Of a DNA stretch of 34,616 nt, positions 5,118 to 6,153 are shown piece by piece (positions within the stretch are counted from its first letter, which is position 1; each line of letters begins with the position of its first letter). The notes beneath the pieces were generated by a model, which saw nothing but the letters and a program-made list of their open reading frames with translations, did no database searches and was not told the origin of the DNA. The position numbers were made by a program, and so were the translations under genes. Source of the stretch: Bacteroidota bacterium (GTDB lineage: Bacteria; Bacteroidota; Ignavibacteria; Ignavibacteriales; Ignavibacteriaceae); contig JAKAKL010000007.1 in assembly GCA_021824565.1 (NCBI GenBank), positions 1-34,616 of the forward strand, written 5' to 3'.

Positions 5118-5337
5118 GGAATATTCCTTTTAATTGAAGGAAAATTCCTTAAATTAGATAGAATAATCCTTCTAAAATAAGGAAATTTTCTTGAATTTTA
5201 AGAAATATTCCTTAAATTTTAAGAGGTATTCCTTACTTTTAATAGAATATTCTATCTATTAAGAAGAATATTCCTTTAGGATGATGGAATATTCCTTCAT
5301 TTTTATTATATTTACCATTAAGTTAATGGAACGGTTC
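5118..5337. repeat. 21-bp-periodic array of palindromic operator-like sites
   Basis: Ten-base cores start at 5118, 5139, 5160, 5181, 5202, 5223, 5244, 5265 and 5286, exactly 21 bases apart, with a degenerate unit at 5307 and another at 5328. The best cores are GGAATATTCC (5118 and 5286); others are GGAAAATTCC, AGAATAATCC, GGAAATTTTC, GAAATATTCC, GAGGTATTCC, AGAATATTCT, AGAATATTCC and GGAACGGTTC. The 11-base spacers are AT-rich and differ from one another. The array ends 28 bases before the ATG of a small HTH protein. Twenty-one bases is two helical turns, so all sites face one side of the DNA. It is probably a binding array, perhaps for the HTH protein itself (inference). Confidence 0.8.
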
Positions 5338-5365
5338 TCTTTCTTTAATAAATCAAAGGATTTTT

Positions 5366-5719
5366 ATGCTGAAATATAATCTTCAAAGAATGTTTAAGCT
5401 TAGGGGAATTAATACTCCGACAATTTTCTTGCAGAGAAATGGTTTTAAGGATTATACTTCCTACAAAATTGCTTACGATAAATTCAAATTTCTATCCGCC
5501 GGATCAATAGAAAAGCTTTGCCTTCTCCTTAACTGCACACCAAATGATTTGATGGAATGGATACCGGATACAACGCAGGCGCAAAACGAAAGCATCGCTT
5601 TAAGAAAACTAATTTCGACGCAAAAGAATATTAATATCGCTCAAGTGATAAACGAAGTCCCCGTTGAAAAGATGAATGAGTTTATTGATAAGGTTCAAGA
5701 GTTGAAGAAAAGTTTGTAG
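5366..5719 (+). CDS. Small Cro/C1-like HTH DNA-binding protein
   Basis: A 117-residue protein starting MLKYNLQRMFKLRGI, with residues 1-65 matching the small Cro/C1-type HTH family common in Bacteroidota-related genomes: helix 1 YNLQRMFKLRG, a central FLQRNGFKDYTSYKIA, and the conserved IEKLCLLLNCTPNDLMEW. Residues 70-117 form a charged helical tail (MNEFIDKVQELKKSL) likely to be a coiled-coil or dimerisation segment. AAAGGA lies 5-10 bases before the ATG. The promoter region is entirely occupied by the 21-bp array, which suggests autoregulation by cooperative binding. A diverged duplicate of its last 16 codons lies at 6526-6579. Target genes other than itself are not evident. Confidence 0.8.
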   Translation: MLKYNLQRMFKLRGINTPTIFLQRNGFKDYTSYKIAYDKFKFLSAGSIEKLCLLLNCTPNDLMEWIPDTTQAQNESIALRKLISTQKNINIAQVINEVPVEKMNEFIDKVQELKKSL

Positions 5720-5736
5720 CAGTAATATTTTTTATA

Positions 5737-6153
5737 TTAAACCGTAAAGGGGTTGACTATTTCTATGCCTTTAATCATTTGTCCGTTATTTAAATCTTCA
5801 GAGTAAATTTTGCTGCAATTTGCAGAGCCGGCAGCAGCAACTATTAAAGCATCCCAGAAAGAGATCGTGTTAGTTATTCTGCAATCAATTGCTTCATATA
5901 TAAGAGCCGTGCTTATTTGTATTACTTCAAATTTTTCAAAAAGTTTTAGCAGACTTTTAACTGAATTCGGATCGGAATGTAATTTTTGTACGGATGCATA
6001 ATAGAATTCCTGAAATACCTGAGTAGATAGAACGCCGGAATTTTCCGTTAACAGTTTTAATATTATTTCTCTGCTTTGTACTTTCTTTTTAGGGAAATTA
6101 TTATCCAGAGTATAAACTAAAATATTAGTATCAACAAAGTACTTTTCTATCAT
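5737..6153 (-). CDS. vapC: VapC-type PIN-domain ribonuclease toxin
   Basis: A 138-residue PIN-domain protein, predicted to be a Mg-dependent endoribonuclease toxin acting on RNA (tRNA or rRNA in studied VapCs). The acidic site is complete: D8 in YFVDTNILVY, E49 in FQEFYYAS, D101 in SFWDALIVAAA and D120 in YSEDL. The length is normal for the family. The start overlaps the end of the antitoxin gene by 23 bases, so translation is coupled. It is convergent with the HTH gene, whose stop is 17 bases away. It appears intact, unlike the toxin halves of the two neighbouring pairs. Confidence 0.9.
   Translation of the reverse strand: MIEKYFVDTNILVYTLDNNFPKKKVQSREIILKLLTENSGVLSTQVFQEFYYASVQKLHSDPNSVKSLLKLFEKFEVIQISTALIYEAIDCRITNTISFWDALIVAAAGSANCSKIYSEDLNNGQMIKGIEIVNPFTV

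Follow-up and report, generated by a model that had tools for sequence, protein, structure and literature searches.

An HTH_26 gene family paired with upstream arrays of 21-bp repeats of variable sequence in Bacteroidota and Acidobacteria

An array of 21-bp repeats and the small HTH_26 gene directly downstream of it form one module that is present in two phyla, with most array-gene pairs having a repeat sequence of their own. We regard this as close to certain, because array and gene co-occur in most full-length homologues with both the period and the upstream position retained. Constant-length satellites are already known in bacteria; what is new is that one HTH_26 family is paired with such arrays, and this family is a candidate for the protein that binds them. 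The founding example is in a 34,616-nucleotide stretch of DNA from a member of the Bacteroidota (the window), for which a first-pass annotation had been made from the sequence.

Units 1–9 of the window array (5118..5306, no strand) are 21 bp each, with GGAATATTCC-type cores in exact register, as seen by core match, unit identity and Tandem Repeats Finder, which also calls the array. The cores start at 5118, 5139, 5160, 5181, 5202, 5223, 5244, 5265 and 5286 and match GGAATATTCC at 10, 9, 8, 7, 9, 7, 8, 9 and 10 of ten positions, in that order. The top score for nine cores in a row in the window is 77/90 at a step of 21, compared with 48 or less at the remaining steps between 10 and 39 (43/90 and 39/90 at the one-turn steps of 10 and 11). 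Nine 21-bp units taken from 5108 have a mean identity of 0.635, whereas the maximum for periods 15–42 in 300 shuffles of the 600-bp array region, with dinucleotides kept, is 0.417. The spacing of 21 bp corresponds to two turns of DNA. The nine exactly spaced cores described in the first-pass annotation are thus confirmed, as are the weak unit that it placed at 5307 and the further one at 5328, whose cores match at 5/10 and 6/10 positions respectively. Palindromy of the nine cores is uneven: three are perfect 10-bp palindromes, four have 4/5 pairs, one has 3/5 and one 2/5, and the unit profile as a whole is significantly dyad-symmetric (p 0.001 and 0.002 in two runs).

The last two units differ from the rest by core match. 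Unit 11 (5328..5348, no strand) has the degenerate core GGAACGGTTC, and unit 10 (5307..5327, + strand) has TATATTTACCAT instead of a good core, which upstream comparison also picks out and which presumably corresponds to a promoter -7 element, going by the Bacteroidota promoter consensus. TATATTTACCAT is 59 bp before the start codon in the window and 58 bp before it in both orthologues (L006 and L007, also given as L026 and L027), and its location at the 3′ end of the array makes it a plausible promoter of the HTH gene. A TTG-N17-22-TAnnTTT[GA] pattern is found upstream of 11 of 87 homologues, compared with 3.4 (sd 1.7) in shuffles, and upstream of one of 39 short relatives.

The HTH gene (5366..5719, + strand; open reading frame list, Pfam and structure model) starts 28 bases after 5337, as had been noted previously, and codes for a 117-aa protein with a C-terminal helical tail, the candidate array-binding protein. 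Its sole Pfam match is HTH_26 (PF13443; 40.5 bits compared with a curated cut-off of 22). The structure model (mean pLDDT 90, pTM 0.75) has an HTH followed by C-terminal helices at residues 91–97 and 100–116, and the modeled fold indicates that residues 29–36 are probably the recognition helix. The structural neighbors of the model include SaPI2 Stl, CylR2 and SinR, which are Cro/CI-type repressors. Structures of EspR align over 79–91 residues (Z 6.0–6.3, rmsd 2.9–3.9, 6–8% identity), a weak match over most of the length for which a common arrangement alone may account. Searching solved structures by sequence gave two matches only, both at chance level.

Homologues were gathered by protein alone, independently of the sequence upstream. 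A family scan of 80 genomes, the window's own genome included, gave 22 matches in nine genomes, leaving 71 of the 80 with no match to the window protein; the own genome has one paralogue with 42% identity. Upstream regions were read for 21 of the 22, a weak match (L013, with no array by eye) being left out. A scan of named assemblies yielded 103 confirmed relatives, the best 80 of which were kept, and searches at order level (164 genomes) and phylum level (296 genomes) brought in more loci and revealed a sharp break in score between full-length proteins and short proteins matching in the HTH part only (from 121 to 46 bits in one search and from 70 to 44 in the other). After removal of duplicates there are 87 full-length loci (98 aa or more, about 117 aa) and 39 short ones (67–89 aa), the flanks of the short relatives being examined up to 2 kb (median 1,485 bp upstream). 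Homologue titles refer to Bacteroidota as well as Acidobacteria, the latter being Pyrinomonadaceae plus one uncultured member, and six of the seven acidobacterial loci have a 21-bp array, with a 20-bp array in the seventh.

A 21-bp array precedes nearly every gene in the first 21 family loci, with mostly different units; the best period between 12 and 44 within 450 bp is 21 or 42 in 20 of them, and at the other (L045) the array is slightly further upstream. In the larger set, 84 full-length genes have 300 bp or more, or only slightly less, of upstream sequence (three loci with too little sequence were left out); a period of 21 leads every alternative between 15 and 27 by more than 0.05 upstream of 61 of them and ranks first by any margin in 73. 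The controls give 0/80 at -1450..-1000, 1/84 at +500..+950 (a 7-bp repeat) and 1/38 for the short relatives, namely L125, which is cut off by a contig end. Looking for 21-bp arrays before homologues was the check proposed in the first-pass annotation, and a strict six-unit test finds them upstream of 58 of 87 full-length genes, downstream of two, and around none of the 39 short genes in the flanks examined. In both downstream cases (L107 and L123) the repeat is one of 7 bp, and 21 is three times that period. With a lax cut, which calls no array below six units, 67 of 87 have an array within 900 bp (median seven units, at most 14), ending a median of 81 bp before the start codon. Restricting this to genes with at least 600 bp upstream gives 62/82 for full-length genes, compared with 3/37 for short ones (one being L125), 4/84 downstream and 0/80 far upstream. 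Counted by protein cluster, a lax array is present in 21/22 clusters at 50% identity, 36/42 at 60% and 46/52 at 70%. These homologue arrays, set against the short relatives and flank controls, support the earlier proposal that the array belongs with the HTH gene.

There are exceptions. Twenty of the 87 homologues miss the lax cut and 15 of these are in a single cluster of 21 members, six of which pass; the titles in this cluster are Chitinophagales, Chitinophaga, Saprospirales, Spirosoma, or only Bacteroidetes. A QPY signature is present in 19 homologues, and in 15 of them the top-scoring period remains 21. At L104 the array has a period of 20 bp in place of 21 bp, and five of the 67 lax arrays (L034, L053, L089, L105 and L185) are possibly in part 7- or 14-bp rhythms. 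No further 21-bp arrays are present in 227,657 bases around 20 homologues, the paralogue in the own genome among them.

What is fixed between modules is the 21-bp step and the place upstream of the gene, and the unit sequence is near-wholly different in distant modules. Median unit-profile similarity between modules is about 0.33, a rise being confined to pairs whose recognition-helix regions are 65% identical or more. The first-pass view that phase and palindromic cores are kept therefore stands for the 21-bp phase but fails for the GGAATATTCC core and for palindromy, as dyad symmetry at p<0.05 is seen in just 7 of 67 homologue arrays and is no conserved feature. A 10.5-bp rhythm within units was also considered, and there is only a slight excess of information (mean z 0.52; 11/67 at p<0.05). 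Similarity between unit profiles increases with similarity between the proteins (Mantel r 0.33, p 0.0005). The partial correlation is 0.29 for the rest of the protein compared with 0.12 for the recognition helix, so that co-inheritance explains the similarity as well as recognition does, and covariation with the helix is not decisive as proof of binding. Two observations concern the helix directly. Several modules with a GYSDNFATR-like helix have, by eye, a AACGACTT-like core in common across assemblies, and two modules in one Labilibacter marinus isolate (L065 and L075) have identical recognition helices and unlike arrays (similarity 0.32).

Modules appear to multiply as array plus gene. Genome G040 has four copies on different contigs; from the final units of the array to the end of the gene they are almost the same, and past the stop codon five of the six pairs match at 8–14 of the first 30 bases; the sixth pair (L035/L036) remains alike for about 30 bp (27/30, then 10/30). 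The upstream limit is visible only for L035 and L039, the other two copies beginning at contig ends inside the array, and the L035 and L039 arrays have a core in common and different spacers. Since the copies share gene, leader and array core, and little outside, the multiplying unit looks like the array together with the gene, with units homogenized within the array.

Across 21 loci, the modules have no neighboring gene family with a constant position, and a common partner gene was discarded. The nearest to recurrent neighbors are two large-protein families (4/21 and 7/21 loci) and PIN proteins (5/21), at varying distances and sides; other common neighbors are mainly orthologues in synteny. 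A recQ-like gene downstream is common to the window, L026 and L027, and a clpB-like gene to the window and L026 (names by eye). Pfam scanning of the ORFs flanking the window module identified a PIN-domain protein and a 352-aa protein without a match. The PIN gene (5737-6153, - strand) directly follows the HTH gene on the opposite strand and is preceded by a small ORF that is antitoxin-like by eye; its five occurrences in the 21 neighborhoods include the window's own. There is no NTPase gene of the ParABS, ParMRC or TubZRC type among the flanking ORFs scanned, nor a recurrent family of this kind at the 21 modules. PADLOC gave no matches for four proteins, NCBIfam none for 78 proteins, and PHROGs only weak ones. 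A mobile element origin was considered with the window protein as query and set aside, the four partial phage matches covering 21–68% of the query and none being confirmed in viral contigs; 72,556 plasmid records searched with the same query contain no match. Elsewhere in the window, cumulative GC skew turns at about 15.6–15.96 kb, with a gene resembling Hsp20 on one side and genes resembling mnmE, mnmG and rsmG on the other (all named by eye), and DnaA-box-like sites are at chance level (4 compared with 4.1).

Arrays with this period are also found away from HTH genes. Scanning 834,613 bases of the own genome revealed 23 arrays of period 21 or 42, compared with five for the remaining periods between 15 and 63 taken together; this was done in 41 stretches, four of them chosen with knowledge of an array (the window, C132:100000, C142:20000 and C128:30000), and the remaining 37 contain 19 arrays. 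Only two of the 23 are at HTH genes and the other 21 are without such a gene within 2 kb; HTH remnants in that distance were sought, and none is above controls. Nine of these 21 orphan arrays are dyad-symmetric at p<0.05, and several have units in common two by two. Among the many 21- or 42-bp arrays off HTH genes in G000 (L207–L226 and L237–L256; e.g. L213:9316, L211:3740, L210:11913 and L245:1229), such pairs are L210/L245 (0.97), L226/L256 (0.97) and L213/L211 (0.87). Two 204-aa genes that are alike by eye and have no Pfam match above the cut-off (L221:6558-7172 and L225:8069-8683) are each located just after a 21-bp array, and are possibly a second array-linked gene family. The window array is similar to four of 22 own-genome orphans (0.80, 0.77, 0.69 and 0.64), the 22 being those from the scan and one more (C68), and its best similarity to 66 homologue arrays is 0.645 (median 0.34). 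The first-pass annotation had contrasted its reading with that of a common dispersed repeat unrelated to the gene, and with 21 of 23 arrays off-gene the own genome comes close to this, although the association with the gene still holds. Single GGAATATTCC sites occur at 17 places in the genome, compared with one for the reversed pattern, but they do not constitute a regulon: excluding the window array leaves 15, of which 13 are inside open frames of at least 155 codons and two are 21-bp arrays. GGAATATTCC-type arrays at L199 and L205 adjoin small lipoprotein-like genes that are paralogous by eye, which looks like a joint duplication of array and gene.

Small samples of other genomes gave varied results. 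There are three arrays in 200 kb of G018, one of which is of the window type although the genome's own HTH array differs (the G018:C7 stretch was chosen for a known match), and one array each in 200 kb of G040 and of G042; G017, from the same genus and without the gene, has none in 165 kb. Two unit patterns are each found in only two of eight genomes of the genus searched, indicating that units are species-specific. A 48-bp tandem array with identity 0.93 was noted at L261:17860-18147 in G018.

Several known systems have features in common with these modules. Iterons at plasmid origins are tandem sites of about 20–22 bp beside the gene of their binding protein, and the modules resemble them in repeat length and in position beside the gene of a candidate binding protein; unlike an iteron replicon, the adjacent protein is HTH_26 and not a replication initiator, and there is no plasmid record match. 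Repressors of the Cro/CI type use one to a few operators. The HTH fold is like theirs (SaPI2 Stl, CylR2, SinR), and by analogy self-regulation is likely, whereas the long array and strict phase are unlike them. EspR is a nucleoid-associated protein with an HTH and a C-terminal helical part, an architecture that the window protein shares at only 6–8% identity, and we know of no 21-bp array of its own. The closest functioning analogue is StbA of plasmid R388, which works without an NTPase; we compare it with HTH_26 by arrangement and not by protein homology. As described in the available part of PMC3098194, StbA is likewise a small DNA-binding protein with an array (stbDRs) around its own promoter and copies elsewhere, but the stbDRs are 9-bp repeats spaced by 2, at one turn, on a plasmid and with an stbABC operon, unlike the 21-bp repeats here, with their chromosomal context and no recurrent partner.

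The closest precedent is in satellites. The first-pass annotation knew of no described system of this form, and this needs correcting, as bacterial tandem repeats of constant length (20–21 or 52 nt) and variable sequence have been described (Subirana and Messeguer, PMC8161180; also PMC6749651; in the portions available), with the proposal that a protein requiring a constant size polymerizes on them and may stabilize the nucleoid. The likeness to the satellites in the available portion of PMC8161180 includes noncoding units of 20–21 nt, several families of the same length per genome, and species specificity. The window array has at least four tandem units of constant 20–21 nt length and is noncoding, and the own genome has arrays of one length with different sequences (23 of period 21/42). 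Those same portions of the two papers tie no gene to such repeats, whereas here one protein family is directly downstream of an array in the majority of the full-length proteins covered. A literature search limited to titles and abstract openings, with subscription papers and preprints mostly outside its coverage, found no HTH gene tied to 21-bp arrays.

The simplest reading, and one that we think is probably right, is that the HTH protein binds the array cooperatively and controls its own promoter. The protein would probably be a dimer or higher oligomer through its C-terminal tail, reading one unit per 21 bp so that adjacent molecules on the same face of the DNA touch each other; binding would extend over the array and reach the promoter at the array's 3′ end, with switch-like autorepression as the outcome, and in the own genome the protein may also occupy dispersed arrays resembling its own. 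Against this reading stand the closer tie of unit similarity to the rest of the protein than to the recognition helix, the unlike arrays of L065 and L075, the scarcity of the dyad symmetry expected for a dimer site, the exceptions among the homologue arrays, and the arrays without a gene, together with the G018 orphan of the window type. A broader proposal is that the missing proteins that bind bacterial satellites are the full-length HTH_26 proteins, each with a private 21-bp unit, polymerizing on one face, controlling its own gene and marking or folding the chromosome at dispersed arrays, with modules multiplying as array plus gene and specificity changing quickly. Its basis is the resemblance between the window array and a few dispersed ones, and we put it forward tentatively, as something that could well be wrong. 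Conversely, the repeats could be a genome-wide 21-nt satellite class with a function (nucleoid structure or none) independent of the HTH protein and merely favored or tolerated upstream of its gene. The preponderance of off-gene arrays lacking HTH remnants, the window array being as close or closer to four orphans than to any homologue array, and the satellites known in the available part of PMC8161180 are all consistent with this, but we consider it unlikely given that one gene family is tied to arrays across two phyla (58–67 of 87 compared with controls) and that other arrays are rare near homologues.

The remaining explanations seem less probable still. The protein could be mainly a chromosomal anchor or organizer like StbA or EspR, with filaments that position or fold DNA and autoregulation secondary, and the direct-repeat arrays with which StbA of R388 acts do surround its own promoter, with the repeat occurring at three further promoters (PMC3098194, available part); the EspR alignments and the dispersed arrays resembling that of the window point the same way. 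We think this improbable, as the EspR match at Z about 6 may reflect a mere common arrangement, plasmid record matches are absent, and most family genomes have no match to the window protein. That the array acts as RNA, either as a transcribed hairpin-rich leader controlling the gene or as a source of small RNAs, is harder still to credit. A transcript of the window array folds better than shuffles (z -4.9), and transcription of a 52-nt satellite is reported for Bacillus coagulans in the available part of PMC8625621, but folding comes free from palindromic DNA, dyad units are not general, an Rfam search of the window found no match, and a period fixed at two DNA turns is not needed by RNA. Finally, 21 is a multiple of three and an open frame runs through the array of L023, raising the idea that the 21-bp unit is a coding remnant of a protein repeat seven residues long. 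This is contradicted by the frequency of open frames through the arrays, 30 of 67 (the window's array counted) compared with 29.1 expected from column-permuted arrays, which provides no coding signal, and we give the idea almost no credence.

These modules bear on why some bacteria keep noncoding repeats of a fixed length, two DNA turns, and of any sequence. The published idea is that a protein polymerizes on the DNA (PMC8161180, in the part available), and a gene family adjoining the arrays gives a candidate that is directly testable. L065 and L075 of Labilibacter marinus are a natural case well suited to asking if the unit sequence is what the protein reads, and the many natural protein-array pairs are material for work on the joint change of a DNA-binding protein and its sites. 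If the satellite-binding reading is true, these modules would represent a bacterial counterpart of satellite DNA with a dedicated binding protein.
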